In this document: positions 35,705 through 61,457 of the stretch, piece after piece
Layout: every line of letters begins with the position of its first letter
Numbering within the stretch: the stretch's first letter is position 1
The notes under the pieces: generated by a model
Database searches by the model: none
What the model was told of the DNA's origin: nothing
The model's input: the letters and a program-made list of their open reading frames with translations, nothing else
Assembly (NCBI RefSeq): GCF_038725785.1
Contig: NZ_CP109796.1
Coordinates: forward strand, 1-64,000
DNA: 64,000 bases
DNA from: Termitidicoccus mucosus
GTDB lineage: Bacteria > Verrucomicrobiota > Verrucomicrobiia > Opitutales > Opitutaceae
Reading direction: 5' to 3'
Program-made: the position numbers and the translations under genes

Positions 35705-35759
35705 GATTGAGGTGTCGGATTGGCTGAAGTTTATCGAAGTGATTTGGAGCTCGTTTCGA

Positions 35760-38700: not shown

Positions 38701-39586
38701 TCTTGAACGGGCGGTAGGTGATCGCGCCATATTGGCGGCGTGTAATATCGTAGGACGGCTTTCGCTCGAATTGTTGGTCATTATATACAAATGCGCCATA
38801 GACAGCCAAGGTGTCTTTTATGAGAGACTTGTTGAAATTAAAACTGGCACGGGTTGACGCACGATCATCAACACGGAATGATGCCTGTGCGGTGTTTTTG
38901 TTTAACAGGGCCTGAGCGGTGCTTTGATTTACGATGCCGGCGGGGCTGCCCATGCCAAACAACATGGAGTTTGGCCCGCGCGAAATTTCCAGTGATGCCG
39001 TGTTGTAAGAATCGAAGGGCACCTGTGGATTGGCCGGATAATAGTTCAGTGCCGAGCCGGGCACTCCCAATCCGCGGACACGATTGGCGGTCGCATTGGT
39101 TTGCACGATTCCGGAGCCGCCACTGTTTGCCGCAATCGTGTCGGCGACACCATCGCTCCGGGCTGACAATATCCCCGGCGTATAAGTCGAGGAACCTTCG
39201 GTGTTCACCTCGTAACGAAACACATCATTGATATCCAACGATGCAGTGTCTTCCATCTGCTGCTTCGTAATCACCGATATGGATGCGCCCAAGTCGGCGA
39301 TATTTGTCTTCATGCGGCTGCCAGCGAGGGTGTTCTCGGCAAAATAGCCCTTTTCTTTTTTTGAATCCACTTGGAAAGGCGACATCACGATTATGTCGTC
39401 GGAGGGCCTGCTATCTGTAGTAGTAACAACCGGGACGCGGGGATGAGATTCGGCGGGATCTGTATCGGATTGTTTAACAGCCTGCGCCATCACCAGCGAA
39501 GACGATATTAACATGCCACTGGCCGCTGCTATTAGATAGTGATACAGGGCGGGGGGATTTTGAGATGCGCAGGGCATGGTTTTCAT
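35760..39586 (-). pseudogene. TonB-dependent receptor, frameshifted
   Basis: This is a large outer-membrane receptor for sugar or other ligand uptake, about 1275 residues if read through. The 5' piece (39586 to about 38268) has a signal peptide, a plug region (NTLAGSRMKTNIADLGASIS, LDINDVFRYEVNTEGSSTYT, SLEISRGPNSMLFGMGSPAG) and the first barrel strands. After a one-base loss in the G4 run at 38266-38269 the next frame carries the rest of the barrel (from QYRTQWGKGANPAANADTWP) to a terminal Phe (FILSATFDF), as expected for outer-membrane insertion. Without correction the 5' piece stops at 38,195. The call is pseudogene unless the indel is an assembly error. Confidence 0.85.
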
Positions 39587-39662
39587 TATTGTGATGTTTG
39601 GAGTCACTATACGTTGTTGTTGTTGCTTTGGCGGAGTTTCACTCGGATATCGTCCCGTTTTT

Positions 39663-42026: not shown

Positions 42027-42085
42027 GACGGCGAGTGTTGGAAGATAAAGTTTCGTTTATGTTAAAAATGGCGCCCCGGGGCATT

Positions 42086-45000
42086 TCAGTGGAAGTTGGC
42101 TTTTATGGCCACGGCGATAGTGGTGCCACCGACATAATGGCGAACCGCGCGGTCGTAGCGTGTGTATTTTTCCTTTTCATTGAGGATGTTTCGCCAGTCG
42201 AAGGACAGCGTCCAAGTATTGGAGAACTGCCAGTTGAAACTGACATCCCAGCGGTCGCTCGGGGCGACGTAAACACCGTCGTCGCCCATGCGGAATGTGC
42301 CCTCCTCGACGGAACCGACGCTGGTCGGATTGCGGCGCAACCAGCTATCGCACCAATAGTAGGCCACCGTGGCATACCAACTGCGCGCGCGATAGGTGAG
42401 GCGCGCGTTCAGCACCTTGCGCTTCATATTGAGGATTTCGATATCGCCTTCCGGCTTGGCATAGCTGAACGAACCGTAGAAATCGAGGTTCTGCAATGGG
42501 GACGGCAGGAACTTAAACTGTTTGAAATTCTGGCGATAGCTGAACTCGTAGCCGCTCATCTTGGCGGTGCCCACGTTCTGCATGGTTTGCACCCAGACCG
42601 GATAGTCAGTAAACCAATCCAGAAGCCCGGGCATTATGTTATCCGCCCAGCCCGTGGTCTGGAGGATGTAGTCGTCGATCTCCTTGTAAAACCACCCGGC
42701 GGTCACCACGCCGGAGTTGGGCAGGTAATATTCAACACTGAGATCATAATTGGTGCTGTATTGCGGCTTCAGCGCGATGTTGGCCCGCTGGAAGGTGTAG
42801 TACTGATTATCAGCATTAAATGAAAGCGAGTCGGAGGGAACGAGCTTGGTCATGTCAGGGCGCTGGATCGACGTCGTGTATGCGGCGCGCAGGATGAGGT
42901 TCGCAACCGGCTCATATTTCAACTGCGCGTTTGGAAACCAATTGTCGTAGGAATTTTCCCCGCGGGCGATTTGATCGCGAACATCGACACCTGTGACCAG
43001 GGTCGGCGGCGTCGTGCTCCAGTCAATTCCGCGCGACCAGCCGGAAGTCTCGACTTCCGTGCGTTCATAACGGGCGCCGGCCATTATATTAAAGTTGGCT
43101 ATCTGCCACGATCCCATGAAATAACCGGCGGCGACGGACTCGGAGATGTCGCGTGTGTAACGGGCCAGATATGTGTAATAATCGGCTTCGTTTCTTGTGA
43201 ACATGTCCGGATTATTATAAAAATATTCCGTGACTTTTTGCGTGCTGATCCAGTTCGGGATCACCGAGCGGGAGGCGTCCGAGGAATCCAGGAAATTAGG
43301 ATCATAAAACTCACTGTAATTTGGCGTGGAGGTTGATCTTGAGATTGTAATCGGAGCGGAGACTGTGCGTCTTGCGGTTCCAATCGACATAAGATCCGCC
43401 GGCCCGGAGCGCGAGCGGATGGCCAAACAATGTCACCGGCGCCATGACGTTAAATTTGCCGCCGTTGCGACGGTCGGTAAGGAGCTGGTCATAACTTTGG
43501 ACCAGCAATGTGGTCCAATTGTCGAGGTCGAGCCAGTCATTGGTGGAAGTTGCGTCTATCTGGGTAATTGTGGCGCCATCCTCATGGCGCGCATCGCTCA
43601 ACACGAAATGGCCGAGCGGGCTTTGGAGCGTGATGCTGTTGATGCCATTGGCGCCTTTCGTAAACGCGCGGGACATGTAGCCGTCGTAGTCAAGTTTGCC
43701 CCACGAGAATGTGTGCTTGACGCCCGGATTGACAGACCAGTTTTCATTATAACGTCCCTGCGAGGAGCGCCATTGAGGACATCGACCAATAGCCGTTGAT
43801 ATCCATCGTGTCAAAATCCGAGTTTGCCGCATCATACGTGCTTCCCCCGACCCTGCCGATGCGCAGGCGATGATAGTGGCTGTTCAATTCCTTCCCGTCA
43901 TTATATGATGTCCGCAGGAAAATGGAGGTGTTGCGGGAGAGTTTGTAATCGAGATTGAGCGAGGCGGTGCGATATTGATTGCGTGAACTGCGCTCCGTCA
44001 TCAGCCAGTCGTTGAGGAAACCCTCCGTGCCGGCGGAGGGAAGCTCTCCGGAGGGCAGCGAAGGGTAGGTGTCGCCGAATTCACCAAGCTCAAAGCTGTA
44101 GCGGTAATTTTCGTAGGCATTAAGCGTGAACGAGACGCCGAGCGTGTTGTTCAAAAACGCCTCGGAATAATAAAAATTGAACCCCGGCCCCCATTTGCGG
44201 GACGGCTCGGCGCCACCGGCATTGGAACTGCCGAAGTCGAGCGCCTTGGTATTGAGGTTGAGGTTGAGTCCGAATGAAACGCGGCGGCCTTTTTGGTCGA
44301 ACGCGTTTTTCGTAATCATGTTTACAACGCCACCGCTGGCGTTGGCCGGGGATGAAGGGGGAGGCACTTTATACACCTCGATTGTTTCCACGGCGGCAAT
44401 CGAAAATGTTTTCAGCGAGACAGCGCGGTCGTAATCATCTATTGCGCTGAGGCCGCTGTTGGCGAGGACGTTGCCATCGGTCGTGAAGGTGGTGGCGTTC
44501 GGGCTGATGCCGCGCACAGAAAAGTCTTTGACGTCCTCACCGTCATAATTGACAAAAATGCCGGGGATGTTTTTCAGAATTTCACCGGCATTGGTGTCGA
44601 GGATATTGCCAAATGCATCAGCGGAAACGACGTTTTTCATCACGTCCGACTGCCGCTGCTGGCTGATGGCGAAAGCCTGTCCCTCGCGCTCGGCGGCGAC
44701 GACAAAGGCATCGAGCATGTAGATTGAGGAGGAAAGCGAAAACTCGACGGTGGCTGCGACACCGGCCTCGACGATCACGGTTTTTGTCAGGCTGTCGAGG
44801 TCGGAATAGGTGACGCGCAGCGAATGCTCGCCCGGCGCGAGACCGGTGATGGTGAATGAGCCGCTGGAATCGGTAGTGGAAGCGGGGGCAGTCGCGCCAT
44901 CGAGATAAACGGGCGCGCCGGGGAGGGCGTTACCGGTCTTGGCGCTGAAAACGCGGCCAGCGACAAAGCCAGTGGATGCCGCTTGGGCATCAAGTTGCGG

Positions 45001-45144
45001 GCCGACTGAAAAGATGAACCCGAATGCAAGCAACGCGGGCAGTGCTCGTGTGATTGCTCCGACTTGCTTGGCGGCAAGTGCGATTTTGTCAAACAGCGAA
45101 ACGGAGGCTGCATGTGATCGGGGATTGGCAGGTTTGCAGTTCAT
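42086..45144 (-). pseudogene. TonB-dependent receptor with carboxypeptidase-like domain, two frameshifts
   Basis: This is the first gene of the minus-strand cluster. The 5' piece (45144 to about 43780) has a signal region, a CarboxypepD_reg-like domain (VAGRVFSAKTGNALPGAPVY), a plug with SVRGISPNATTFTTDGNVLA and VYKVPPPSSPANASGGVVNM, and early barrel strands. Two one-base gains, near 43,774-43,787 and 43,326-43,334, split the barrel into three frames (GRYNENWSVNPGVKHTFSWG in the second, YSEFYDPNFLDSSDASRSVI in the third). The barrel ends AVAIKANFH. Read through, it is about 1018 residues, normal for such receptors. It probably imported large oligosaccharides. Confidence 0.85.
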
Positions 45145-45445
45145 GTGGTTGGTTGGGTTTAGTATGAAAGTAATTCTATTCGCATCACGCGGCGGCTCGT
45201 TTTATGTTCGGATACCCAAGGGTGCGTCGTGTTTGCATGATAGGGCAATTGTGTCATTGTAATATGGAAACTGGTTTGGGGCAGAGGGCTTGTCGCCGGG
45301 GTTTATTCAGCTTCTAGGGGGCGCAGGGCGTTCAGGATTGAGGCTAGGGTGGGTTTTAAGTGACAATATCAAATTGGCGGGCGGCTGCTATCGGTCATTT
45401 GAGGTATTTTTTTGCGATTGCATTTGTGCTAATATCCGTGCCGTC
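45145..45445. promoter_or_regulatory. Divergent control region with candidate operator
   Basis: This 301-base gap separates the receptor-led cluster (minus) from the sensor kinase (plus) and must hold both promoters. It is AT-richer than its flanks. The 16-mer at 45396-45411, CATTTGAGGTATTTTT, recurs with one mismatch and inverted at 49454-49469 ahead of the giant PL4 gene. It could be the binding site of the response regulator encoded at 48578. No -10/-35 pair could be assigned with confidence. Confidence 0.45.
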
Positions 45446-48400
45446 ATGCTGGAAATGACGCCCCATTCACTGATGCAAAAATCAGCCTGCGCTCCGTCCT
45501 GGCTCGGATTGCGCAGGTGGTTTTGCGTCGGTTACGCCGTCCTTGTGCGGCTCGTGACGTTCGACTCTTGGCTCGACGCACAGGAGGCCTCGCCCAATTT
45601 GCACACACGCACGTCCGGCTTCATTACGCGCGGCTGGGATGCCGAGGACGGACTGCCGCATAATGCAGTCAACAAGGTCATCCGCGACAGGCATGGTTTT
45701 CTGTGGGTCGCCACACAGCTCGGCTTGGCCCGTTTCGACGGACGACAATTCGTAACTTACCGCGTTCCCGACGATTTTACGCTGGGCGGCTACAACATCC
45801 GTGCGCTTGCGCTGGAGGACGATCACACGCTGTTGATGCTCACCGGAGGCGACAAACTGGTGCGCTTGCGCGATGGTGTTTTCGAGCTGCATCCGGCAAA
45901 TGGCAAGATGGAGGGTTCCCGCATGCGCGAACTGGCCGTCGATGAGAACGGCGACATCTGGATTGGCACGGAAACATCAAAATGCCTGCGATGGAATGGC
46001 AACGAGCTGCAAACATTCGGAGCCGCCGAGGGCGTGAACGCGCGCGGCGCGTCCTTTACTTTTGCGAACGGCCAGCAGAAACGCTTGTGGGTGGCGGGCG
46101 GCGATTTTCTCGGCTGGCATGACGAGGAAGGTTTGCACGAATACGCGCACAAGACAGGTAATTCGTTCTACGTCGCCCCGGCGCGCTCCGGAGGCGTGTG
46201 GGTCGCCGCGCGCGAGCATCTGGCGAAAATCGAAAACAACCGCTGGCGCATCGTTTATTCCGAAACAGACTGGCCGGCGCGACGGCTCGGCATCCAGGAT
46301 ATTTTCGAAGCGGACGACGGGGCGCTTTGGATCGCAACAAAACGCGATGGCGTCTTTCGCTTGGTGGACGGCGTCCTGACGCACGTGCCCATGCCCCAGG
46401 AACGAGCGATGTCCATCACGGACGACATCGACGGCAATGTGTGGCTGGGCATGCACGGTGGCGGCCTCGTGCGAGCCAAGCCACAACGCCACGTGCTGCT
46501 CAACACCGCCGCCGGTTTGCCGTCGGATGTGAGTTCGTCGGTGTGCGAGGATGGCAACGGCGCTCTCTGGTGCGCAAATCAATCCGGCGGCCTTGTGCGC
46601 ATGAAGAACGGCAACATTAGTATCGCCACCATGGCTGCGGCGGAAAGCATTCCCTACATCAGCAGTGTTTGCGCCGACAAACACGGGCGTATCTGGGCCG
46701 GTTCCGTCAGCGGGCTCTATTGGACGACGGTCAAGGGCAACGGCCCGCACGACGGCGGTGGCGAGCGATGGCTTTTGCAACATTACGCCGGCAGGAAAGG
46801 TCAATGTGCAGTCGCTTTTTGCGCATCCAATGGCGATCTTTGGGTCAGTTGGGGTGGCAGGCACCTCGGCGTATTGCGCGCTGGGAAAATGCACGAATTC
46901 ACACAAACCGACGGATTTCACGGCGAGCGCGTCATGGAATCGCCGAGCGCAAAAATGGCGAAATCTGGATCGGCATCGTGCGCGACACGCTTCTTCGCTT
47001 CGACCAGAACACCGGCAAATTTGAGCAACACCCGCTCCACGACTCCACACGGTTCAACCGCATTCACTCGCTCTTTGTTGATAGCGAAGACCGGCTCTGG
47101 ATCGGCACGATTCAAGGATTGCTCCTCTGGCGCGGAAACGAATCGCGGCTCTTCACGCAAGCGGACGGCCTGCCCGACGAAACCATCAACCAAGTCGTCG
47201 AGGACGACTATCGGCGCCTTTGGGTCAACAGCCGCCGTGGCATATTCCACGCATCCACAAAACAACTGCTCGCCGTTGCGGACACCCCCGGGAAAAAAGT
47301 TTCCGCAATCCTGCTCGGACACGACGAAAACCTCGATGGTATTTCCGGCCTGCTCGGCAGCCAGCCCATGTCCTGCAAAACGCGCGACGGACGCGTCTGG
47401 TTCATCACCTATCGCGGCGTTATCGGCTTCGATCCGCCGGACTCCCGCGAGGCACGCAAGCCCCTGCCGGTTTATATCGACGCCATCGCCGCAAACGGCC
47501 GCGCACCGATCATCCCGGCACCCGGAGCCGAAACGCGCATCCCGTCCGGCGCCATCCCCCTCGAAATCCGTTTCACCGCGCTCAATTTCTCCACTCCCGA
47601 GCGCACCCAAATATGGCGCATGCTCGAAGGCTACGACCCTGAGTGGATTGATGCCGGCGGCGAGCGCAAAGCCATCTACCCGCGCCTGCCTCCGGGACGT
47701 TATGTGTTTCGCGTGCAGGCGGGCGATTCGGACAGCGGTATCCTGACGCAGTCGGAAGCGTCGCTCATCATTATCGTTGCCGCCGCGTGGTGGCAAACAT
47801 GGTGGCGCGCACCTTCGCCCTGCTCGTTTTTGCCACGATTGTCGCATGGTGCGCGCGCCGCATGTCCTTCCGAATTCTCAAGCGGCGCTTGCGCCGCCTT
47901 GAGCACGAACACGCGCTTGATCGCGAGCGCACCCGCATCGCGCACGACCTGCACGACGACCTCGGCGGCCACACCACGCAAATCAGTTTTGTCGCAAACA
48001 GGCTTTTGCGACAAAGTCCGACTCTCGCACAACAAGAACTGCTCACGCGCCTCACATCACTCGCGCATCAACTCGTGGAGGACTTGCATCGGATAATCTG
48101 GACGGTCGATCCGCAAAACAACTCATGGGAGGATCTGGCGACATATATCGCGCGTTATGCCCAGCGACGGCTTGCGGGCACCGGCATCGCGTGCATCGTT
48201 GAGGGTATCGAAAACATACCCGATCTGCCTCTGACACCCGAAGTTCAACATCACCTGCTCGCAGTGACCAAGGAAGCTCTCAACAACATGCAAAAACACT
48301 CGCATGCGGATCGTGTCACCATCCGCTTGTCCGCGAACGAAGGGCTGTTCCGTATGTCCATAAACGACAATGGACAGGGCTTTGATGTGGCCGCCGCAGT

Positions 48401-48557
48401 GGGCGAAGACGACGGCAACGGCCTCCGCAACATGCATACTCGCATGAAAGAGATCGGCGCGAACATTAAAATCGAGAGTTCCCCCGGAGCAGGCGCGCAA
48501 ATCTCGGTTGAATTGCCGTTCCGGCGCGATCATCCTCCATTAAGCCAACATCAATGA
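45446..48557 (+). pseudogene. Reg_prop/Y_Y_Y sensor histidine kinase, two frameshifts
   Basis: This is a membrane sensor kinase of the two-component-regulator-propeller type. A signal or TM segment (about 20-45) is followed by Reg_prop repeats (TRGWDAEDGLPHNAVNKVIR, DRHGFLWVATQLGLARFDG), a Y_Y_Y domain (EGYDPEWIDAGGERKAIYP), a TM helix (TFALLVFATIVAWC), HisKA_3 with the phospho-His in IAHDLHDDLGG, and HATPase_c (KEALNNMQKH, INDNGQGFD, GNGLRNMHTRM). One base is missing near 46,936 and another near 47,804; restoring each G run gives a continuous protein of about 1037 residues. Its partner regulator starts 20 bases later. It probably senses rhamnogalacturonan fragments in the periplasm. Confidence 0.88.
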
Positions 48558-48577
48558 ATCATTAGAAACATACCCTC

Positions 48578-49216
48578 ATGTCCATCAAGGTAGCAGTTGT
48601 TGAAGACAATGCAGACATCGCCCGCGACATCGCCCAAATCATAACGGAAACGCCTGATTTTGAGCTGTGTTGCGTATGCCGAAACGTGCAAAGCGCCCTC
48701 AAGCGGATTCCGCCGCTCATGCCCGACGTTGTCATCATGGACATCAACCTCCCCGACGGCTCCGGCATACAGGCCACCGAAAAAATCAAGCGCATCATTC
48801 CGCACACCGAGGTAATGATTCTTACGATTTACGAAAACACCGAGGAAATATTCAAGGCGCTCAAGGCGGGGGCCAACGGCTATCTGCTCAAACGCTCCAG
48901 TGGCGAGGAAATCGTCACCGCAATACGCGATCTCATGAACGGCGAAGGGCCCATGACGGGAGAAATCGCACGCAAAGTCATGCAGTTGTTTCGCAAGCCT
49001 GACGTGGCCGCGCAAACCGATGCCCTGAAGGAAAAGCTCACCCCGCGCGAAATCGAAATTCTGCAACTCCTATCAAAGGGGCACACCTCGAAGGACATCG
49101 CCCGTGAGATTTCCCTCAGCGCCTTCACCGTGCGCACACATTTGAGGAACATTTATGAAAAACTCCGCGTGCATACTCGCACCGAGGCCGTCGTGAAGTT
49201 CCTCAAGGGAGACTGA
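48578..49216 (+). CDS. NarL/FixJ-type response regulator
   Basis: This 212-aa regulator has an N-terminal receiver domain with acidic pocket E9/D10 and phospho-acceptor D55 (VVIMDINLPDGSG), and Lys in the LLKRSS strand. The C-terminal LuxR-type HTH is at about 148-208 (LTPREIEILQLLSKGHTSKD, TVRTHLRNIYEKL). The frame is intact. It follows the sensor kinase by 20 bases and is its likely partner. The shared 16-mer found near 45,396 and 49,454 is a reasonable candidate target. Confidence 0.95.
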   Translation: MSIKVAVVEDNADIARDIAQIITETPDFELCCVCRNVQSALKRIPPLMPDVVIMDINLPDGSGIQATEKIKRIIPHTEVMILTIYENTEEIFKALKAGANGYLLKRSSGEEIVTAIRDLMNGEGPMTGEIARKVMQLFRKPDVAAQTDALKEKLTPREIEILQLLSKGHTSKDIAREISLSAFTVRTHLRNIYEKLRVHTRTEAVVKFLKGD

Positions 49217-49282
49217 GTCGCGCAACCGCTACATCGCGCCCCTTGCGGCGCAGACGTCAAATCTGCCTCGGCGCGATTTGAT

Positions 49283-49429
49283 TAGAGCCTGTTATGCACT
49301 TGTATCAGCCGCCTCAGAGAGGGAATTGTTTTGGAAAGAGTCAAAAATGGCCCAAATCCATCGTTTTTCAGTTTCAATTCTGAGCCCTCTCCTATGAGAG
49401 AGCTTTTTCAAAGTGCATAACTGGCGCTA
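49283..49429. mobile_element. MITE-like element, 147 bp
   Basis: The ends are about 20-bp imperfect terminal inverted repeats: TAGAGCCTGTTATGCACTT at 49283-49301, and TAGCGCCAGTTATGCACTT read inward from 49429. The core GTTATGCACTT is perfectly inverted. The element has no coding capacity and lies between the response regulator and the giant PL4 gene. GTTATGCAC-type ends are typical of short elements mobilised by full IS transposases. No transposase occurs in the window. The remainder of the 331-base gap shows only the candidate operator. Confidence 0.7.
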
Positions 49430-49453
49430 GGCAGGTTTGGCCGCCCGTACTGC

Positions 49454-49469
49454 AAAAATACCTCATATG
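49454..49469 (-). promoter_or_regulatory. Candidate operator, second copy of the 16-mer
   Basis: On the minus strand this reads CATATGAGGTATTTTT and differs from 45396-45411 at one position. It lies 78 bases before the ATG of the giant PL4 gene. Its conservation ahead of two transcription units of the same locus suggests a regulator site. Confidence 0.45.
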
Positions 49470-49547
49470 TGCGATAGGCGCGCCGTCGGGTTTTTGTTAG
49501 TCTAGGGAGGAAATATCCCGAGTGCTTTCCCAGACGTGAGAAACAAT

Positions 49548-52500
49548 ATGTCCAAACCCCTGCGCATCATTTTTAAGGCAGTCGGCTTCGTGGCGGCAAC
49601 ACTGTGCGCAAGCATCACCATGACAGCCAATGACCCCGGAGGCGGGGCGCATGGAACAGGCGCGGATGTCACGTTGAGCATGCAAGAAAACAACGTGACT
49701 CTCAGCAACGGCATCGTCACGGCAACCATCAACACGTCCAATGCCCGGGTCATATCCTATCTTTTCCAAGGCACTGAAATGGCGGACACAAACGGCTACA
49801 TATACTACAGCATGGACGGCGGGGACATGTATGAAGGCCCGTCCAACTGCGTCTATACGGTCACCGTAAACACGCCCGACATGATTGATATATCTTGCAA
49901 GGCCGTTTATGCGAACAACGCCAGCCAGAAGCACGCCTTTGACATTGATTGCCACTTTGTTCTGCGCCGGGGGGACACCGGATTATACTCGTATGCGGTT
50001 TTATCGCATCCAGCGAGTTATCCCGCAGCAAGCGTGGGTGAATGGCGCATGGTCTGGAAGCTGCCCTACACCTCGACTGATTGGATTTTCGAACGTATCT
50101 ATGCGGACGAAACCCGCAATGGATTCTGGGGCACCCGCACGGATTTTCTTAATGCCGAATCAACAAGCATAGCGGAAATCATCCAATTCACGACAGGCGA
50201 GCGCGCTGGCGAATACGACTGCAAATACCAATACTCGCTTGAGTATCAAACCGCCGGCTGCTGGGGCCACGCCAGCAATGTAAACAAAAAGGGCGCATGG
50301 TTTGTATTGGGCGGATACGATTACCTCAACGATGGTCCCATAAAGAACGACCTCGCGGTGGCCGAGGCGAATCAGCTCCTGCACTTTGGCAGAAATCATT
50401 ACAATGCCTCGGAAACCATTGTCGCCGCAGGCGAGGAGTGGTCGAAAATATACGGCCCGTTTTTGCTCTATTGCAATTCCACCGCTGCGACGGAAAACGC
50501 AGGTGACGCTCTCTGGGCCGACGCCAAGGCGCAAGTGCAGGCTGAAATCGCCGCATGGCCTTACGCTTGGCTGACAACCGCCGACTATCCCGCAAACGCC
50601 CAGCGCGGTGACGTCAAGGGAAGGATCATCATCACCGATCCGCTCAAGCCCGCGCTCTCCGCCGGAACAAACACATGGGTCGGGCTCTCCCACCTCGACG
50701 AGGGCGGCAACTGGCAATTTGAATCAAAACGCTACCAGACCTGGGTGCATCCCGATGAAAGCGGAAATTTTGTGATCCCCTCCGCTCGCCCCGGCAATTA
50801 CACCCTCACTGTGTTCACCGACGGCGCGGTGGGGGAATACACCCATCCGCAACCCGTGACAGTCACCGCCGGCGGAATAAACGATTTGGGCGATGTCATC
50901 TGGAACGTCATCCACCCCGGCGAGCGAATTATATGGGAGATCGGCATTCCAAACCGTCGCGCCGACGAGTTCCGGCACGGAGATGACTACTGGAAGTCCT
51001 TTTTATGGGAATACTTCCATGAGGAATTCCCGAATCCGCTCGAATATGTTGTCGGAGAAAGCAACTGGGCGACCGATTGGAATTACGCGCACTCCGGTTA
51101 TCTTGTTGACGGCGTCTGGTCGCAATGGAAATGGCGCATCCGCTTCAATCTCGACAGCCTCCCCGCCAGCGGCGATGCCACGCTTACGCTCGCGTTTGCC
51201 AGCATAGATCGCGGCAATGTCCGGGTTTTCGTGAATCAGGAAAGCAACCATTTCGTCGAAGTGTCCCCCGACCCGGCTGGCGGCAGTTCTGGCGGAAACG
51301 CGCTCGCCCGCCTTGGCAACCACGCGAAATACAGCCTGATCTATGTCACGATCCCGGTGTCGTCGCTTCGTATCGGCGCGAACACAATCACCCTGATTCA
51401 GCGCTCGACTGGTTCGGCCCAAAATCACGTCATGTATGACTATATCAACTTGGAAATGCCTGCCAGCGTTTCACCATTGCCGCAGGGCCGCGATCTGGTG
51501 TGGCGCGGCGGAAATGCGGCCAATGCATTCGACAACGCGACGCAAAATTTCGTCACTGGAGACAATCAACCGGCGACATTTTCCGATGGCGACAGCATCA
51601 CTTTTGACGACACGGGCTCGAATTCGCCGTCCGTGACAAAGAGCGGCACGCTCATGCCGGCCAATATAATTTTCAACTCCACACAAGACTATACAGTCGA
51701 AGGCAACGGCTTGTTCAGCGGTCCGATGGCACTCCAAAAAACGGGAAACAGCCGCCTGATATTAAGCAGTGCCAACACCTATTACGGCGGCACCCGAATT
51801 AACGGCGGCATTGTGCAAGCGGGAGCAAATGGCAACGGAGGCATTGGCTGGGGGGCGGTTACATTCAACAGCGGCACGTTGCAGTTGCATGGATACAATG
51901 GCAGCCAAGGCGCAACCTATGGCGAATTGCCGAATACTCTTGTGGTGCCGGAAGGGAAAGCCGGCACTTTGTTGTGTCCGCCCCGCATGGCGGGAGGCGG
52001 CGTGAGCGGCCCGTTGACCGGAAGTGGCACGCTGACCGTGGTGATCGATTATGTGCGCGGGATTTTGAGCGGAGACTGGTCGCTGTTTTCCGGACAAATC
52101 AATGTCATCACCAAACCCAACGCCCCGGCGGAAAACCAGTTTCGCATATCAAATGATTACGGCTACGGCAGGGCATCCATCGATCTGGGCTCGAAAGTCA
52201 TCGTACAAAACATCCAATCGGGCGATGATTTCATCATCGGGATCGGCGCGCTTTCCGGCGATGCCACTGCGCGTATTCAGGGCGGCCCGACCTCTGGAAA
52301 GATAACGACGTGGCAAGTCGGGGCAAAGGGGCTTTCCACAACCTACGCTGGTTCTATCGAGGATCTGACCGGCCCGAGCGCGCTTGCCAAAATCGGCGCC
52401 GGCACGCTCACGCTCTCCGGCGTCAGCACCTACACGGGTGAGACAAGCATTGATGCCGGAACGCTAATCGTCAACGGCGCTCTGGGAACGACCAATGTAA

Positions 52501-54662
52501 CCGTGCGTGCAGGCGCGACCTTGGCTGGCACCGGCACGATTGGGGGAAACGTGCAGGCGGGGAACGAGGCGATTTTGCAGCTTTCGACAACGAACGGTGC
52601 CGGGCTTGTCATCAGCGGCTCTGCCACTCTATCCGGCACAATCACGATCGTGCCCGTTTCCGGTCTTATCGGCGATGGCGCATCACTGGTAACCGGCACG
52701 TATAATATTTTGAAAACATCAGGCGGCATAAACAATGCCGCCGAGTTTATTTGGGCCGAATCCATGGCATCGGAGTTGATCGCCACCGTCAATGTGAACG
52801 GTAATACTCTGAAGTTGGTGCTCGCCGAAGCGCCGCCCCCACCACCTGCGCCCGTCATCTCGGGCACGCTCTCCGTGAGCGCCATAGTGGGCCAGTCATT
52901 CAGCTACACTATCTCAGCGACAAATTCGCCCACGAGCTATGCGGCCTCCGGCCTGCCGGCGGGATTGTCCATCAACACTGTGACAGGCGTAATCACCGGA
53001 GTGCCGGCCACAGCGGGCACGACCAATGTCGAAATTTCCGCAATCAATGCCGGCGGCACCGACACGAAGACGCTCGTCATCACGCTCATCGGGCAACCGT
53101 CCGTCACCAACGCCAGCCACACCTCCGGCATGATCGGCGCGGCATTCTCCCTGACGATAAACACAACCGGCGGCTCGATCACATCCTACGCCGCCACCGG
53201 ACTTCCCGACGGACTCTCCGTAAACACGGGCACCGGCGTCATAAGCGGCACGCCCACCGTTGCGGGCACATATAACATCACGATTTCGGTGACAAACGCC
53301 GCAGGCACGGCGACATTCCAGATTGTCCTCACGATTGATCCCAAAACCGCGCTCACCACGCTCGCAGGCGCGGCAAACACACCCGGCGCAACCAACGGCG
53401 CAAGCACCGCCGCCCGCTTCGACTCACCAAACGGAGCCGCCGCCGATGCCAACGGCAACCTCTACATCGCCGACACCGACAATAACGCCATCCGCAAAAT
53501 CGCAACAGACGGCGCCGTCACCACCTTCGCGACCGGATTCAACGCACCCACCGCCATCGTCATCGACTCTGCGGGCGCGGCGCTCTACGTCGCCGACACG
53601 GGTAACAACGTCATCAAGAAAATCGATGTCGCCACGAGCACCGTCAGCACACTCACCCTCACCGGCCTCGCCGCGCAACTCGACGCACCGCACGGACTCG
53701 CCATCGACGCATCGGGCAACCTCTACGTTGCCGACACCGGCAGTCACACCATCCGCAAAATCGTCACCTCCAACGGAGCCACCACAATCCTCGCTGGAAC
53801 AGCCAATATCCAAGGTGCCGCCAATGGTGTTGGCACCGCCGCTCGTTTCCACATGCCGATGGGCCTGACTATCAATGCCGCCGGCACATACCTCTACGTC
53901 GCGGACACCGGCAACAGCACCATCCGCCGCATCACACTCGCCAGCGTTCTCGTCGAGACAATCACCGGACTGGCCGGCGACACCGGCTCCACCGACGGGC
54001 TCGCCGCCGACGCGCGCTTCAACACCCCGCAGGCCATCGCCATCGACGCCACGGGCAATCTCTACATCACCGACACCGGCAACCATACCATCCGCAAAAT
54101 CGACGCCGCCACGGGCATCGTCACCACGATTGCCGGAACCTCAGGCAGCAGCGGCTCGCAAGACGGCCTCGGCGGTCAAAGCACGCTCAACTCCCCCGCC
54201 GGCATCGCCATCGACGAGACCGGCGAAATCTACGTGCTTGATACCGGCAGCCACACCGTGCGCGTCCTGCAAGTCGGCCCTGTCATCACGACATCGCCCG
54301 CCGGTCAAACCGTGACAGCCGGAGCCAGCGTCACACTCAAGACCGAAGCATCCGGAGCGCCCGCGCCCGCTTGGCAGTGGTATAAAAACAACGCCCCCGT
54401 CGCGAGCGCGACCAATGCCACGCTCGCCTTCACCCCGTCGCAAACCACCGACACCGGCAGCTACCACGCCATCGCCACAAACCCGATGGGCTCCGCCAAG
54501 AGTAATGCCGCCACGCTCACCGTAAACAGCAGCGGCACCACCACACCGAATCCCGACCCCGGCAACTCCGGAGGCGGCGGCGGGGGCGGCGCGCCCAGTC
54601 TGTGGCAGATGCTCTCGCTCGCTCTGCTGCTCATCGTGCCACGCCGCGCGCGCAAATCCTGA
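49548..54662 (+). CDS. Giant PL4 lyase fused to beta-strand, Ig-like and NHL repeats
   Basis: This is a 1704-aa secreted protein with an intact frame. Signal peptide: about 1-27. A complete PL4 rhamnogalacturonan lyase covers about 28-640 (YAVLSHPASYPAASVGEWRM, IWEIGIPNRRADEF, YDYINLEMP). Autotransporter-associated beta-strand repeats follow (about 645-1085; AKIGAGTLTLSGVSTYTGET). Two Ig-like putative-sugar-binding modules come next (about 1100-1265; ASGLPAGLSINTVTGVITGV). NHL repeats cover about 1275-1575 (LYVADTGSHTIRKI). An Ig domain lies at about 1580-1660. The end is a Gly-rich linker, a hydrophobic helix (LWQMLSLALLLIV) and PRRARKS, a tripartite sorting-type tail. I chose the ATG at 49548 over a GTG at 49536. 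It probably attacks pectin at the cell surface. Confidence 0.88.
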   Translation: MSKPLRIIFKAVGFVAATLCASITMTANDPGGGAHGTGADVTLSMQENNVTLSNGIVTATINTSNARVISYLFQGTEMADTNGYIYYSMDGGDMYEGPSNCVYTVTVNTPDMIDISCKAVYANNASQKHAFDIDCHFVLRRGDTGLYSYAVLSHPASYPAASVGEWRMVWKLPYTSTDWIFERIYADETRNGFWGTRTDFLNAESTSIAEIIQFTTGERAGEYDCKYQYSLEYQTAGCWGHASNVNKKGAWFVLGGYDYLNDGPIKNDLAVAEANQLLHFGRNHYNASETIVAAGEEWSKIYGPFLLYCNSTAATENAGDALWADAKAQVQAEIAAWPYAWLTTADYPANAQRGDVKGRIIITDPLKPALSAGTNTWVGLSHLDEGGNWQFESKRYQTWVHPDESGNFVIPSARPGNYTLTVFTDGAVGEYTHPQPVTVTAGGINDLGDVIWNVIHPGERIIWEIGIPNRRADEFRHGDDYWKSFLWEYFHEEFPNPLEYVVGESNWATDWNYAHSGYLVDGVWSQWKWRIRFNLDSLPASGDATLTLAFASIDRGNVRVFVNQESNHFVEVSPDPAGGSSGGNALARLGNHAKYSLIYVTIPVSSLRIGANTITLIQRSTGSAQNHVMYDYINLEMPASVSPLPQGRDLVWRGGNAANAFDNATQNFVTGDNQPATFSDGDSITFDDTGSNSPSVTKSGTLMPANIIFNSTQDYTVEGNGLFSGPMALQKTGNSRLILSSANTYYGGTRINGGIVQAGANGNGGIGWGAVTFNSGTLQLHGYNGSQGATYGELPNTLVVPEGKAGTLLCPPRMAGGGVSGPLTGSGTLTVVIDYVRGILSGDWSLFSGQINVITKPNAPAENQFRISNDYGYGRASIDLGSKVIVQNIQSGDDFIIGIGALSGDATARIQGGPTSGKITTWQVGAKGLSTTYAGSIEDLTGPSALAKIGAGTLTLSGVSTYTGETSIDAGTLIVNGALGTTNVTVRAGATLAGTGTIGGNVQAGNEAILQLSTTNGAGLVISGSATLSGTITIVPVSGLIGDGASLVTGTYNILKTSGGINNAAEFIWAESMASELIATVNVNGNTLKLVLAEAPPPPPAPVISGTLSVSAIVGQSFSYTISATNSPTSYAASGLPAGLSINTVTGVITGVPATAGTTNVEISAINAGGTDTKTLVITLIGQPSVTNASHTSGMIGAAFSLTINTTGGSITSYAATGLPDGLSVNTGTGVISGTPTVAGTYNITISVTNAAGTATFQIVLTIDPKTALTTLAGAANTPGATNGASTAARFDSPNGAAADANGNLYIADTDNNAIRKIATDGAVTTFATGFNAPTAIVIDSAGAALYVADTGNNVIKKIDVATSTVSTLTLTGLAAQLDAPHGLAIDASGNLYVADTGSHTIRKIVTSNGATTILAGTANIQGAANGVGTAARFHMPMGLTINAAGTYLYVADTGNSTIRRITLASVLVETITGLAGDTGSTDGLAADARFNTPQAIAIDATGNLYITDTGNHTIRKIDAATGIVTTIAGTSGSSGSQDGLGGQSTLNSPAGIAIDETGEIYVLDTGSHTVRVLQVGPVITTSPAGQTVTAGASVTLKTEASGAPAPAWQWYKNNAPVASATNATLAFTPSQTTDTGSYHAIATNPMGSAKSNAATLTVNSSGTTTPNPDPGNSGGGGGGGAPSLWQMLSLALLLIVPRRARKS

Positions 54663-54730
54663 AACTCATTTCCCGACGAAAAACTAAAATCCCAAGCACC
54701 CGACAAACACTCCAACCACCGCGCTTCATC

Positions 54731-57700
54731 ATGACTAAAGTTAACTCCCCTCGCAACTGGCTCAAACGCCTCGCCGCGCTCGCCGTCACCGTCGGCGCGT
54801 TTCTCGCGCTCGCCGCCACCGCCAGTGCCGCGACCGTCTCCTCCATCACCCGCCACAGCCCCGCCACCGAGAGCACCACCTCCGCCGCTGTTGTCTTCAA
54901 GGTCACCTTTTCGGAGGCCTTCGCTGACGCCGACGCCGCCGACTTTGAAGCGCTCGCGGCTGCCGGCGTCACAGGTGCTGCCGTCACCGGCGTCCGCGCC
55001 GACGCCGGCGATCCGAGCGTCCTCTATGTCACCGTCTCCGGCCTTGCCCTCGAAAGCGCCGGCACCATCGGCCTGAAAGTTTCCGATACCGCCACCATCA
55101 CTGACTCCGGCGGCAATCCCATCCCGGGCGGCTTCGCTTCCGGCGAAACCTACACACGCACGCCAGCCTCCATTCCCGCCTACAACAGCGCCGTCCGCGA
55201 TACCACCGTCACCTGGCTCGGCACCATCAACAACGACTACAATCTTCCGTCCAATTGGAGCACCGGTGTCGTTCCCGGTTCCGGCGAACGTGTTTCCATT
55301 GATACCACGCTTCCCGGCACACCCGCCATTGACATCCTCCTCGAAAACACCGGCCCCGCTGACGTTTCACATAAAATCGGCGGATTTGCCGCCAGCGGCG
55401 CGCTAACCGGCTCCACCACGCTTACCCTCTCCAGCACCGGCGGCGCGTGGCTCAATCTCGAACTCGATGGCGCATGCTTCTTTAGTCGTAATAACAACAA
55501 TAGCGATCAGCCGTGGACACTCATCCTCAACGACCACACCCGCGTCACCGTCACCGCCACCCACGGTTTTTATTCCCCTCGCGCGGCTGCTTTTTGGGGC
55601 GCGAAAGTCACCGTAAAAACCGGTGCCGAACTCGACGCCGGCACAATTAGGGAGCAGAATTTTAACACGCTCAATACCGAGAAGGACTCTCTCGTCACTT
55701 GGGGCGGCGGATACCAGGCTTACATCAACCAGAGCTCTGTCATCTCCGGCACGCTCCATGCCACGCACGCCAGTGGAAAGGAGGCCCTTCGCATCGCCGA
55801 TGGCGCCACCGGCGTCATCACTCTCGCCGAAACCGGTGTCATACAATATGATTATGTGGATACCTATACCAACCTCAATTACGGCACCTTCATCGTCAAC
55901 GGCACCCACAACGGCAGTGTCCGCACCATCAGCGGACGCGCCAGCACTCTTAGTGGCACCGGTGTCATCAACGGAGACATCCTTCTCAACGGCTCCGGCA
56001 TTGTCGCCGCAGGCGGACAATCCGCCGGTGGCACACTCACGCTCAACGGCTCCGGCACCATTTCCTCCTCGGCCAGCCTCAAGGCCAGTTTCTTCGAGGA
56101 CGGCTCGCACGGCACGCTTAACGTCAACGGCACGCTGACCATCGGCGGCGCCGCCATCCTCAACCTCGCAATCGGCGGCGCCGACTCCGGAGCCACCGCC
56201 GTCCCCGGCCGCTACAAAATCGTCACCGCCACCGCCATCTCCGGCACATTCCCCAATCCCGCGCTCAACGCTCTCGGTGCCAGCGTCAACACCGCCCTCG
56301 AAACCGGCGCCGATCCCGGCACCGGCGGCCAGGCCATCTGGATCAACATCGTTGACCCAAGCGGAGAAACCCCGCCCTCGCTCGCATGGGCCGCCGATGC
56401 CGGCGACCAATCCGCGCAAGTCGGCGAAACCGCCACCTTCACCGTAACTCCCACCGGCACAGGCCCATTCACCTACACTTGGAAAAAGAACGGCGAAACC
56501 ATCTCCGGCGCCACAACTGCCAGCTACACCACCCCGACGCTTACTGCTGCCGACAATGGCGCTGTTTATACCGTCTATGTCAAAGGGGTCGCCTACCAGC
56601 GCGTCCCGCTTGCCGCCACCCTCACCATCGTCACCGCGCCTGGTTTTGCCGCAAACGGCGACCTTCCCGCCAGCACCATCGCCTACGTCAGCGACATCAC
56701 CCTTTCCGTTACCGCCACCGGCACCCCCGCGCCGTCATTGCAATGGCAAATCTCCACCGACAGCGGCGGCACTTGGAACGACATCTCCGGCGAAACATCC
56801 GCCACCCTCGACCTCACCGGCCTCACGTTCTCCGACACCGGCAAACAATACCGCGTGAAACTCAACAACGGCGTCGGCGGCGACATCTTCTCCACCGCCA
56901 CCACGCTCACCGTCAACACCGGCCCGCAACCCGCCCTCTCAGTTTCACCCAACACCGCGCAAACCATCACCAGGGACGCCGGCTCGGTCTCCTTCTCCAT
57001 CACCAACAGCGGAGAAGCAGGCTCCTCGCTCGTCTGGCAGGCCACGCTGACCAACGCCCCCGATTGGGCGCGCATCACCACCGTCACCAGCGGCACTGAC
57101 ACCGGTTACATCACCGTCGAATACGACCTTAATCCACTCGGCACCGGCACCGAACGCTCCACCACGCTCCGCATCACCGGCGAAGGCGCATCAGGCAGTC
57201 CCGCCAACATTCAAATCACACAAGCCGCGAATCCGTTCGTCGTCATCCAAGTCACCTTCGATGCCGGTGAAGGAGCCACGGTTTCCCCCGCCACGAAAAC
57301 CGTCACTCGCGAACTCCCCTACGGCACCCTGCCCGTGCCGGTGAAACCCGGATACACCTTCGCAGGCTGGTTCACCGAACCCGAGGCTGCCGGCACCGAA
57401 GCCACACAGACGACCATCGTGCCTGACCTCAACAACCACAGCCTCCACGCCGCTTGGGTGGAACTCCCGCAATCGGTCCCCGTCATCACAAACAACTACT
57501 CCGCCGAGCAAGTCGTCGCCGTGGGCCGCTCCTTTACTCTCACCGCCACCGCCAGCGGATCTCCGCCCCACCTACCTCTGGCAAATTTCCACGGACGGCG
57601 GCAAATCTTGGAGCGACCTATCCCCTACTAACTCCAACTACTCGGGCGTCCTCACCAGCACACTCAAAATATCCCGCATCAACGCCGGCATGGACGGCTA

Positions 57701-58838
57701 CCTCTTCCGTTATCGCGCTGTCAATGTCAACGGCACCACCTACAGCGATCCTGTCAAGCTTGTCGCCGCCGAGGCCATTTTTGCAGGCCCCGCCGATCTC
57801 GCCTTTGACAGCGCCGGAACGCTCTACGTCGCCGACACGCCCGCCAACATCATCCGCCGCATCGACACCTCCGGCAGCACCTCCGTCTTCGCCGGTGCCT
57901 CCGCCTCCGGCGCGCTCCTCGACGCCACCGGCACCGCCGCCCGCTTCAACCAGCCCACGGCCATCGCCTTCAACGCCGCCGGCGAACTCCTCGTCGCCGA
58001 CAAGGACAACGGCGTGATCCGCAAAATTACCTCCGATGCCCAAGTCACCACCTTCGCCACGGGCCTCGGCAAACCCGTCGCCCTCGCCATCGACGCCAGC
58101 GGCACGCTCTATGTCGCCGACTCCACCAACCACACTATCAGCACCGTGGACACCGACGGCACCGTGGCTCTGCTTGCCGGCCTCACTGGCACCGCGGGCA
58201 ACACCGTCGGCGCCGGCACCGGCGCCCGCTTCAACGCTCCCTCCGGTGTCACCATTGACAACGATGGGTATCTCTTCGTGGCCGACACCGGCAACAACAC
58301 GCTCCGCACACCTGACTCGCTCGGCGTCTTCCTGCACTACGCAGGCACACCCGGCATTGTCGGCACCGCTGACGGCGACGCACCCGACGCCCTCCTCAAC
58401 AACCCGCGTGGCCTCGCCTCCGACGCCGCCGGAAACATCTACTTCGCAGACACCGGAAACCACACCATTCGTGTCCTCGCCGCTGACGGTGAAATCGTCA
58501 CCCTCGCAGGCATGCCCGGCATTTCCGGACTCCGTGACGGCTCCGCAGCCACCGCGCTGTTCAACGCTCCGCAAGCCGTCATCCTCTCGCCCGAAGGCAC
58601 GCTCCTCGTCGCCGACACCGGCAACGCAGTCGTCCGCGAAATCACCTTCGCCGCTGGCGACTTCACCTCAGCCCAAGTCGCCACGCTGGCCGTTACCACC
58701 GGCACGACGATAGGCAACGGCACCGGCTCCACTGGTGGCAGCAGCGAAGGAGGAGGCGGAGGCGGCGGTGCGACTTCAATTCCCGGTCTCGCCCTTCTCG
58801 GCCTCTTCATCGTTATCGCCGCCATCCGTCGTCGATAA
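54731..58838 (+). pseudogene. NHL-repeat surface protein with sorting tail, frameshifted
   Basis: This gene starts 68 bases after the giant PL4 gene. The first frame (to a stop at 57,631) has a signal peptide (LAALAVTVGAFLALAATASA) and a beta-helical module homologous to the autotransporter passenger at 39663 (HKIGGFAA, LNDHTRVTVTA, AAFWGAKVTVKTGAELDAG). Ig-like domains and a Listeria-Bacteroides-type repeat (YGTLPVPVKPGYTFAGWF) follow. A shift near the C4 run at 57,566-57,569 moves into the frame with TYLWQISTDGGKSWSDL, NHL repeats (LYVADSTNHTIS, IYFADTGNHTIRV), a long poly-Gly stretch, and SIPGLALLGLFIVIAAIRRR. It has no enzymatic domain; it is likely a binding or display protein. Confidence 0.82.
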
Positions 58839-58966
58839 GGTCAACATACGCTACATTCCATCATCACGAGTCTGGCAGCGGATCGGTGGTGGAATATTGC
58901 GTTCAATTGGTGGCGCCTGCTCTCACTCGCGCTGCGTCGCATCGCCTCAAAATAGAAAGCATATAA

Positions 58967-58989
58967 TACCATTTTCGAATCACTTTTAG
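58967..58989. repeat. TACCATTT dispersed repeat, copy 1
   Basis: TACCATTTTCGAATCACTTT and the next three bases match 61352-61374 at 19 of 23 positions. It lies within the 476-base gap 58839-59314, where no gene was found. Confidence 0.6.
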
Positions 58990-59004
58990 ACTATAGCAGC
59001 CTCT

Positions 59005-59038
59005 ATCCTTTTTGGAGGGACGGCCTCCCAAAAGGATT
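59005..59038 (+). terminator. Possible bidirectional terminator hairpin
   Basis: ATCCTTTT-TGGAGG (from 59005) pairs with CCTCC-CAAAAGGAT (to 59038) around a short GACGG loop. It is 167 bases past the NHL-protein gene. The A/T-rich outer arms could serve as the tract for termination in either direction, or it may be one more hairpin repeat. Confidence 0.4.
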
Positions 59039-59099
59039 AAATCTCGTTCGGAAATTGTATAACAAAATAACCAACGCAACTCGCAAAGAGGCAAATGAA

Positions 59100-59197
59100 G
59101 TCTGTTTTAACGCAGGTCACGGAGGCCAAACCAGAAAAGGATTTCCCTTCTCCGTGCTCTCCATGTCAGATCTCTGTGCCCTTGTGCTAAAACAGAC
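59100..59197. repeat. 98-bp hairpin repeat with GTCTGTTTTA ends
   Basis: GTCTGTTTTA at 59100-59109 is inverted at 59188-59197. Further imperfect pairing occurs inside (CAC-GGAG and CTC-GTG words). The internal CGCAGGTCACGGAG phrase recalls repeats seen in Bacteroidota and Verrucomicrobiota intergenic regions. It lies upstream of the symporter gene and codes for nothing. Confidence 0.65.
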
Positions 59198-59314
59198 CTC
59201 CTCAATTTTTCTTTTGATAAACGCTCTTAAGTCGGCGCCTGCGGGACCATGGTTAATCCTGAATTCTGTCAGGTGCTCTAAATTAATTAACGACCATCCA
59301 ATCCACGCATATTC

Positions 59315-61039
59315 ATGATTCTGGCAAGCATTACGACCCTTGAGCTTAAATTCGTCGATTATCTCATCATCGGCATTTATTTCGCCTTCGTGCTCGGCAT
59401 CGGCTGGGTGCTGCGGCGGCAAATGACCGGCACCAAGGATTACCTCGAGTCCGGCCGCTCGCTGCCCGCGTGGATCTGCGCGCTGGGCTTCATCGGCGCC
59501 AACCTGGGCGCGCAGGAGGTCATGGGCATGGCCGCCTCGGGCGCCAAATACGGCATCATGACCAGCCACTTTTATTGGATCGGCGCGATTCCCGCGATGA
59601 TCTTCGTGGCCATCTTCATGATGCCGTTTTATTACGGCTCAAAGGCGCGCTCGGTGCCCGAATACCTGAAGCTGCGCTTCGACGAGAAGACGCGCGGGTT
59701 CAACGCCCTCACCTTCGCCGGCATGACCGTGATGTCATCGGGCATCTCGATGTATGCGCTGGCCAAGCTCCTCAACCTCATCCTCGGCTGGAACTTCCAC
59801 GGTTGCATCATCGTCTCCGGCCTCATCGTGCTCGCCTACATTCTCATGGGCGGCCTCACCTCCGCCATCTACAACGAGGTGCTCCAGTTTTTCCTCATCG
59901 TGTTCGGCTTCCTGCCGCTCGTGCTGCTCGGCCTCAAAAACGTGGGCGGCTGGGAAGGCCTGAAAACAAAGCTCATGCCCGTGGCGGAAAACGCCGGTTT
60001 TGCCAGCGATGCGTGGACGCACTCGTGGAGCTTCACCGGCTCGCCGGCGACCAATCCGATGGGCGTGGAGTGGTTCGGCTTGGCGATGGGATTGGGCTTC
60101 GTGCTTTCGTTCGGCTACTGGTGCACGGACTTTCTTGTCATCCAGCGCGCCATGGCCGCGAAGGACATGGGGGCGGCGCGACGCACGCCCATTCTCGCGG
60201 CGATTCCCAAGATGCTTTTCCCCGCGCTGGTGATCGCGCCGGGCATGATCGCCATCGCGATGCACAGCATGGCCGACAGCAGCTTCCACCTGCCCGCCAA
60301 GGGCGACAGCCTCGACTACGACCTGGTCGTGCCGACGATGCTCTCGTATTATTTCCCCACCGGCATGCTCGGCATCGGCCTGACCGCGCTGATGGCCTCG
60401 TTCATGAGCGGCATGGCGGGCAACGTGACCGCCTTCAACACCGTCTTCACCTACGACATTTACCAGAGCTACATCAAGAAGGACGGTTCCGACCGGCATT
60501 ACCTCAACGTCGGTCGCTGGACGACGGTTTTCGGCATCCTCTTCAGCATGGGCGCGGCGTATTTTGCGGCGGCCTTCAACAATATCATGGACGTGCTGCA
60601 ACTGGTGTTCGCCTTTGTGAACGCGCCGCTCTTCGCCACGTTCCTGCTGGGCATGTTCTGGCGCCGCACGACCGGCCACGCGGCGTTTTCCGGGCTCGTG
60701 CTCGGCACGGTCGCCGCCGCCATCCATCACGGTCTCTCGCTGCCGGAAAAAGCCGTGGCCGGAATCAAGGGAGGCTGGCTCTCGATCCAGCACGTTTACC
60801 CGAGCGAGATGGCGCAGAACTTCTGGACCGCGATCTGGGCGTGGAGCACTTGCTTCGTGATCACCATCCTCGTCTCGCTCGCGACCAAGCGCACCAAGAC
60901 CGACGACGAATTGCGCGGCCTGGTCTATTCGCTCACGGAGAAGATCAAGGAGCATGACACGGCTTGGTGGAAACGCCCGGCAGTGTTCGGCACCGTGGTG
61001 CTCCTGTGTGCCGTCGTGCTCAACATCATCTTCTTCTAA
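59315..61039 (+). CDS. Sodium:solute symporter (SSS family)
   Basis: This 574-aa inner-membrane protein has about 13-14 hydrophobic helices. It shows the SSS signature region GLTALMASFMSGMAGNVTAF, with N-terminal LKFVDYLIIGIYFAFVLGIG and GFIGANLGAQEVMGMAASGA. These are typical of SGLT-like sodium/sugar symporters. Transport of a mono- or disaccharide released by the neighbouring enzymes is likely; the exact substrate cannot be read. The ATG at 59315 gives the first helix near the N-terminus. A small membrane protein gene follows after 21 bases and is probably a partner. The frame is intact and the DNA GC-rich like the core chromosome. Confidence 0.93.
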   Translation: MILASITTLELKFVDYLIIGIYFAFVLGIGWVLRRQMTGTKDYLESGRSLPAWICALGFIGANLGAQEVMGMAASGAKYGIMTSHFYWIGAIPAMIFVAIFMMPFYYGSKARSVPEYLKLRFDEKTRGFNALTFAGMTVMSSGISMYALAKLLNLILGWNFHGCIIVSGLIVLAYILMGGLTSAIYNEVLQFFLIVFGFLPLVLLGLKNVGGWEGLKTKLMPVAENAGFASDAWTHSWSFTGSPATNPMGVEWFGLAMGLGFVLSFGYWCTDFLVIQRAMAAKDMGAARRTPILAAIPKMLFPALVIAPGMIAIAMHSMADSSFHLPAKGDSLDYDLVVPTMLSYYFPTGMLGIGLTALMASFMSGMAGNVTAFNTVFTYDIYQSYIKKDGSDRHYLNVGRWTTVFGILFSMGAAYFAAAFNNIMDVLQLVFAFVNAPLFATFLLGMFWRRTTGHAAFSGLVLGTVAAAIHHGLSLPEKAVAGIKGGWLSIQHVYPSEMAQNFWTAIWAWSTCFVITILVSLATKRTKTDDELRGLVYSLTEKIKEHDTAWWKRPAVFGTVVLLCAVVLNIIFF

Positions 61040-61060
61040 CCCTCAACCTCGCGCCAAACC

Positions 61061-61267
61061 ATGCAACTCGATGTCCGCCTTCCGATGGGTCTTCTCTTTC
61101 TGATTCTGGGAGTGATCCTGCTCATCTACGGGTTCGTTTCCGACCCGGCGATCTACGCCGCGCATCATAATTACGGGCTGAACATCAACATCGCCTCGGG
61201 CGTTGTTTTCGGTGTGTTCGGTTTGGTCATGCTGTTTCTGGCAAAACGCGGAAAAAACAAGCCGTAG
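61061..61267 (+). CDS. Small two-helix membrane protein linked to the symporter
   Basis: This 68-aa protein has two hydrophobic helices (LLFLILGVILLIYGFV at about 11-26 and ASGVVFGVFGLVMLFLA at about 45-61) and a basic tail RGKNKP. It starts 21 bases after the symporter stop, so it is almost certainly co-transcribed. Small proteins of this shape often follow SSS symporters in Verrucomicrobiota and Planctomycetes as I recall, suggesting an accessory or stabilising subunit. No motif reveals more. Confidence 0.75.
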   Translation: MQLDVRLPMGLLFLILGVILLIYGFVSDPAIYAAHHNYGLNINIASGVVFGVFGLVMLFLAKRGKNKP

Positions 61268-61296
61268 CAGGCGGGATGACTGCCTCCTGCTGGGAA

Positions 61297-61457
61297 GACG
61301 GCCTCCGTGCCGTCCATTTTTACTTTAAATCTAGTTAACTGAAAAATGTCATACCATTTCTCAATGACTTTTAGCCTTTATCCGATAGGCGGCCACGGAG
61401 TGGCCGCCGCGAATCACATGTTGCCCTCGACGGCGATCGCGGAGTGATCGCCCTACC
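61297..61457. repeat. Cluster of triloop hairpin repeats
   Basis: Three hairpins share a stem of eight or nine positions and a GGA/TCC-type loop: 61297-61314, 61388-61408 (perfect, 9 bp) and 61432-61452 (one G-T mismatch). The last runs into TCGCCCTACC (61448-61457), the inverse of the first ten bases of the repeats at 2282 and 5505. Between them 61352-61374 carries the second TACCATTT repeat, and 61483-61494 repeats AAATGGTATAAT from 5583. The 246-base gap contains no gene. Confidence 0.7.

Follow-up and report, generated by a model that had tools for sequence, protein, structure and literature searches.

A giant, likely surface-displayed PL4 protein of Termitidicoccus mucosus and its genome-wide family of GlyGly-CTERM-type tails

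The window analysed in this study is a stretch of 64,000 nucleotides at the start of contig NZ_CP109796.1 of Termitidicoccus mucosus. By inspection, window positions 101-1501 read as dnaA, and the contig apparently starts near the origin. The gene of main interest codes for a giant polysaccharide lyase family 4 (PL4) protein, and was found among the following genes.

19352..33992, minus strand: rhamnogalacturonan-I (RG-I) genes, namely GH2, GH43, GH106 alpha-L-rhamnosidase, LacI-type regulator, short PL4, GH42 and PL11
28041-29984, minus strand: the short PL4 within this RG-I gene set
39666-42026, minus strand: autotransporter with beta-barrel (PF03797), inside the RG-I locus
43747..45144, minus strand: TonB-dependent receptor, N-terminal part (CarboxypepD_reg and plug, by Pfam)
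45446..49216, plus strand: two-component system adjoining the lyase gene, with a Reg_prop sensor kinase (frameshifted) and a LuxR-type response regulator
49548..54662, plus strand: PL4 lyase gene, 1704 aa plus stop, intact reading frame
54731..58838, plus strand: another giant NHL protein, its tail of the same type as that of the lyase; frameshifted at about 57565
23561..61403 (about 38 kb), strand not applicable: segment repeated at C1:2693912-2731666 with 99.04% identity

As GH106, GH2, GH42, GH43, PL11, a second PL4, a TonB receptor and regulators are all nearby, the region was read as an RG-I utilisation locus. A gene for an SSF symporter is also present downstream of the giant PL4 gene.

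Over the part of the repeated segment from roughly 36 to 60 kb, substitutions between the two copies were almost absent, whereas some 70 small indels (1-6 bases) were counted; the downstream flank was about 92% identical. The sensor kinase, frameshifted in the window, is a single frame in the second copy, and the orthologue of the 54731-58838 gene in Ereboglobus sp. PH5-10 is an intact frame of 1473 aa. Because the copies differ by indels and hardly by substitutions, assembly error was preferred to decay, and the frameshifts of these two window genes look like long-read assembly errors. Real decay of the "broken" second lyase copy (C1:2719897-2724951) was rejected for the same reason, as a likely assembly error.

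For the lyase gene itself, the coordinates, strand and length given in the first-pass annotation, which had called the 5.1-kb frame intact, were all correct. The parts of the protein are as follows.

49548..49628, plus strand: Sec-type signal peptide, residues 1-27 (inspection and hydropathy)
49653..50645, plus strand: PL4 domain I, residues ~36-366, with putative catalytic Lys226 and His284 (PF06045, fold, residue conservation)
50223-50225, plus strand: Lys226, putative catalytic, invariant in 12 relatives
50397-50399, plus strand: His284, putative catalytic, invariant in 12 relatives
50670..50876, plus strand: PL4 domain II (fn3_3), residues 375-443 (PF14686)
50931..51452, plus strand: PL4 domain III (CBM-like), residues 462-635 (PF14683)
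51465..52817, plus strand: PATR / TIGR02601 beta-strand-repeat spacer, residues ~640-1090 (Pfam, short strands in the model)
52848..53357, plus strand: two He_PIG Ig-like domains, residues ~1101-1270 (PF05345)
53370..54281, plus strand: NHL beta-propeller, residues ~1275-1578 (PF01436, structure match)
54279..54524, plus strand: Ig domain, residues 1578-1659 (PF13927, Ig_3, match 1578-1645)
54570..54659, plus strand: GlyGly-CTERM-type tail, residues 1675-1704 (Gly run, hydrophobic stretch, Arg cluster)

The annotation had described a complete PL4 followed by beta repeats, Ig and NHL modules and a Gly-TM-Arg tail, and every one of these features was recovered by Pfam or from the sequence. All three PL4 domains matched above cut-off: domain I weakly (PF06045, residues 36-178, 2e-10), domain II at 1e-14 (PF14686, residues 375-443) and domain III at 5e-31 (PF14683, residues 462-635). 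The rest of the protein gave PATR in two stretches, two He_PIG matches, NHL (1.6e-36) and Ig_3. The C-terminal sequence is GGGGGGGAPSLWQMLSLALLLIVPRRARKS. The 1704-aa frame is supported by Ereboglobus sp. PH5-10 (G002), of the same family, since the orthologue in this genome has an unbroken frame and shares the architecture, its PL4 part being 88% identical.

The structural model of the C-terminal half had a mean pLDDT of 80.7, with most of the propeller above 90. The NHL part forms a complete propeller, and matched 7DJM with a Z score of 41.1 over 293 residues. In the PATR part the model placed many short strands (pLDDT 55-93), which is suggestive of a solenoid, and it is from these predicted strands of middling confidence that we infer a "stalk". 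The order of Ig-like and NHL domains in the predicted structure is that of the Ig-like/NHL auxiliary nutrient-binding proteins of Bacteroides (3HRP, 3TC9, 4HW6), but those proteins are joined neither to an enzyme nor to a GlyGly tail, and the match is one of fold alone.

Nine further proteins encoded in the genome share the C-terminal region that starts near residue 1090, at 42-52% identity over about 480-620 residues, and one of them has a PL11 domain. In a different PL11 protein, L132 (PL11-PATR-NHL-tail), the plan of the giant PL4 protein is repeated on another lyase. Tail-bearing enzymes of the genome include three PL11 (L145, L121 and L132), four GH5, a GH98 and a PF14099 lyase; further tail-bearing proteins are of the GDSL, reprolysin-like, sulfatase-modifying-factor-like and BNR types. 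The tail was searched for across the genome with a model (A2) built from 12 tails. This gave 62 matches at E<=1 and 57 at E<=0.01, or 55 distinct ones when the repeated segment is left out. The tail was the extreme C-terminus in 43 fetched frames and in that of the window, with seven more by pattern. The display module is thus not peculiar to the PL4 lyase, as the tail has 55 distinct places in the genome and is borne by PL11, GH5, GH98 and other enzymes.

The tail of the giant PL4 protein has a Gly-rich motif without Cys, a hydrophobic stretch and a basic C-terminus. These features, together with the signal peptide and a rhombosortase, are shared with VesB of Vibrio cholerae and ExeM of Shewanella. 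The general GlyGly model TIGR03501 left this tail unreported at E<=10, while about 15 sibling tails passed; according to its authors, the model overlooks true members (PMC3237569). Two rhombosortases, with the GLSG serine and the AHxxG histidine, were found above the NCBIfam cut-off in the genome. The gene for one of the two lies directly 3' of that for a VIT/VWA-type protein whose tail is rich in Gly (L172:7806-10858). Across 150 genomes of the family, a rhombosortase above cut-off was present in 42 of the 44 with tails and in 41 of the 106 without (Fisher p 1e-11, not corrected for relatedness). In 14 of the 150, a tail gene directly preceded a rhombosortase gene in the same orientation (G015, G047, G060, G085, G086, G096, G099, G106, G112, G115, G118, G129, G141 and G146). 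Because it co-occurs with and adjoins rhombosortase in relatives, we take the tail, on these sequence criteria, to be of the GlyGly-CTERM kind. In the MYXO-CTERM system (PMC11980579), surface sorting likewise depends on a three-part tail and its cleavage by an intramembrane protease (myxosortase), but that tail has an invariant Cys that is missing from the one described here. A survey of 2011 recorded 1 to 13 GlyGly-CTERM tails per genome, with one in Opitutus terrae (PMC3237569), as against about 55 here, mostly on giant repeat proteins. A search of the open-access literature on GlyGly-CTERM and Verrucomicrobia returned nothing beyond this survey.

Surface display of the giant PL4 protein is likely from its sequence features, the tail, rhombosortases and homologues of GspD, GspE and GspF all being encoded in the genome. 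The three Gsp homologues are in a row but score below the NCBIfam cut-offs, and the type II secretion system (T2SS) is therefore a putative one. The signal peptide would direct export via Sec. In V. cholerae, VesB is processed by rhombosortase and located at the surface (PMC6219818); tail and rhombosortase lead to membrane association, and crossing of the outer membrane requires a further secretion signal (PMC13393428). By analogy with VesB, the tail of the giant PL4 protein would be cut by rhombosortase in the inner membrane, the new end would be modified, and the protein would then reach the surface, most likely via a T2SS. The PATR region, He_PIG domains, propeller and Ig domain would act as a spacer between enzyme and envelope, with possible glycan binding by the propeller as well. 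A classical autotransporter route was rejected for this protein, which has no Pfam match to the C-terminal beta-barrel (PF03797).

Release of the enzyme to the gut fluid appears unlikely, although less so than the other alternatives. The tail would then be cut and the protein would leave by the T2SS or by later proteolysis, with the "stalk" binding substrate, which would agree with the likeness of the Ig-like and NHL domains to the Bacteroides nutrient-binding proteins. Cleavage and release was considered by Haft and Varghese (PMC3237569), and the tail-tagged VesC is transiently retained and then freed (PMC13393428). However, VesB is kept on the surface by its tail (PMC6219818), and about 55 proteins with one common tail fit a display system. 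It is improbable that the tail is instead an uncut membrane anchor or an exosortase substrate, which would leave the protein in the inner membrane or on the PEP-CTERM route. Three exosortases were found above the Pfam cut-off in the genome, and the silence of TIGR03501 on this tail would fit such a role, but the PEP motif is absent and the tail type strongly co-occurs with, and adjoins, rhombosortase in relatives.

The model of the PL4 part (pLDDT 76.6) matched the rhamnogalacturonan lyase RGL4 of Aspergillus aculeatus (1NKG) with a Z score of 29.2 and an rmsd of 3.2 over 485 residues, at about 19% identity. The next, unrelated structures were far below, at a Z score of about 18. RGL4 was also the sole match in the PDB for a profile of 12 relatives (A1). 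Two other PDB searches gave no match, one with the single sequence of the PL4 part and one with a sub-alignment (A4) for Lys226 against Lys150 of RGL4. Counting along the printed profile alignment, in a low-scoring stretch, His284 corresponds to His210 of 1NKG; Lys226 has the spacing of Lys150 by ungapped extension beyond that alignment. PDB titles for RGL4 name a K150A active-site mutant and an H210A mutant. The predicted three-domain fold and the position of the catalytic His are those of RGL4 (1NKG / 2XHN / 3NJX), and Lys226 would take the place of its catalytic Lys; RGL4 is an enzyme of about 508 aa without the repeats and tail present here. From sequence and model, we infer that the PL4 part would be a beta-eliminating enzyme that cuts the backbone of RG-I, its catalytic pair being Lys226 and His284. 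It is very doubtful that the domain has an altered or lost catalytic function and acts chiefly in RG-I binding or as a surface-layer protein, with the short PL4 and the PL11 of the locus alongside: the low identity to RGL4 and the failed single-sequence search would allow it, but neither residue varies among 12 diverged relatives, and their spacing appears to be the catalytic one of RGL4.

The reading preferred here, and considered fairly probable, is that of an exported RG-I lyase, probably held on the outside of the cell by its rhombosortase-cut tail. TonB receptors would then take up the oligosaccharides produced, for degradation by the GH106, GH42, GH43 and PL11 enzymes encoded in the locus.

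PL4 proteins had been taken to be normally of about 500-650 aa, with a long one as unusual. A PL4 match (E<=1e-20) was found in 30 of 384 genomes of the class, and in about 12 of these 30 there was one in a frame of more than 1000 aa, so that great length is no exception. The other giant PL4s that were fetched had neither NHL nor tail, and most end in a domain of the '..FYR..P' type. Those of Verrucomicrobiota (for example G075, G282, G355, G211 and G249) have several hundred to more than 1400 residues after the PL4 part, sometimes with PATR as here, but finish in the '..FYR..P' domain, unlike the present protein; in L180, about 530 residues follow the PL4 part, with the same end. This C-terminal domain (L053, L055, L180-L188) had no convincing match in NCBIfam. 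The PL4-NHL-GlyGly tail architecture was found in two of the genomes searched, T. mucosus and Ereboglobus sp. PH5-10, and a search of the open-access literature for PL4 joined to NHL found nothing. The claim of a new arrangement is thus only partly borne out: the exact PL4-NHL-tail combination is rare, but the parts are already known, long PL4s are common and the cassette is on PL11 too. In the PL4 tree, the two tail-bearing proteins formed one clade (100/100) inside giants with the other C-terminus, which indicates that the tail end is a derived exchange. The tree supports a scenario in which a class-wide giant PL4 lineage with another C-terminus gained the Ig-NHL-Ig-tail cassette.

At about 15 loci in nine Opitutaceae genomes, the GlyGly tail was internal, and the frame continued unbroken into a second exported protein, usually a TonB receptor. 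The order at these junctions was surface protein, GG-TM-Arg, positive loop, second hydrophobic signal ending like (A/S)xAQ, and exported protein. Some of the upstream surface proteins had pectate lyase or PATR/He_PIG modules. Four of the loci are in the T. mucosus genome.

C1:379066-388632, minus strand: internal-tail frame L115/L194
C1:3516248-3525712, minus strand: internal-tail frame L157/L196
C1:3393463-3405036, minus strand: internal-tail frame L134/L210
C1:6578292-6589316, plus strand: internal-tail frame L119/L195

The other frames were L198, L202, L203, L204, L206/L221, L214, L215, L216, L217, L218, L219 and L220, and the other genomes G051, G102, G002, G021, G080, G077, G049 and G065. 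Two further T. mucosus loci were left out of the examples, C1:102266-114437 (4057 aa), in which intergenic-looking sequence follows the internal tail, and C1:1588998, whose downstream part lies in a different frame. Each of three downstream parts scanned had the plug and barrel domains of a TonB receptor. A pectate lyase domain opens both the C1:6578292-6589316 frame and L198, the latter from the single-contig genome G051. The frame L221 (G021:C46), of 4994 aa, has two internal GlyGly junctions and a TonB-receptor-like end. Sequencing errors that removed stop codons might account for one or two of these loci, but hardly for so many in nine assemblies. From these sequences, the balance tips slightly towards the internal tail as a processing site, in polyproteins that would be cut by rhombosortase and signal peptidase. 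Such cutting would give equimolar amounts of a surface enzyme or binder and a transporter.

More unusual than the giant PL4 protein itself are the size of the tail family and the occurrence of internal tails. One surface-sorting end piece is spread over dozens of proteins, including a PL4 and three PL11, in a gut-type verrucomicrobial lineage, a count far above the maximum of 13 that the 2011 survey recorded for GlyGly-CTERM proteins in one genome (PMC3237569). Should the fusions of internal tails to TonB receptors prove real, they would give bacteria a novel means of producing an enzyme together with its importer in a single precursor. The system offers a testable model for the attack on pectin at the cell surface by this lineage.
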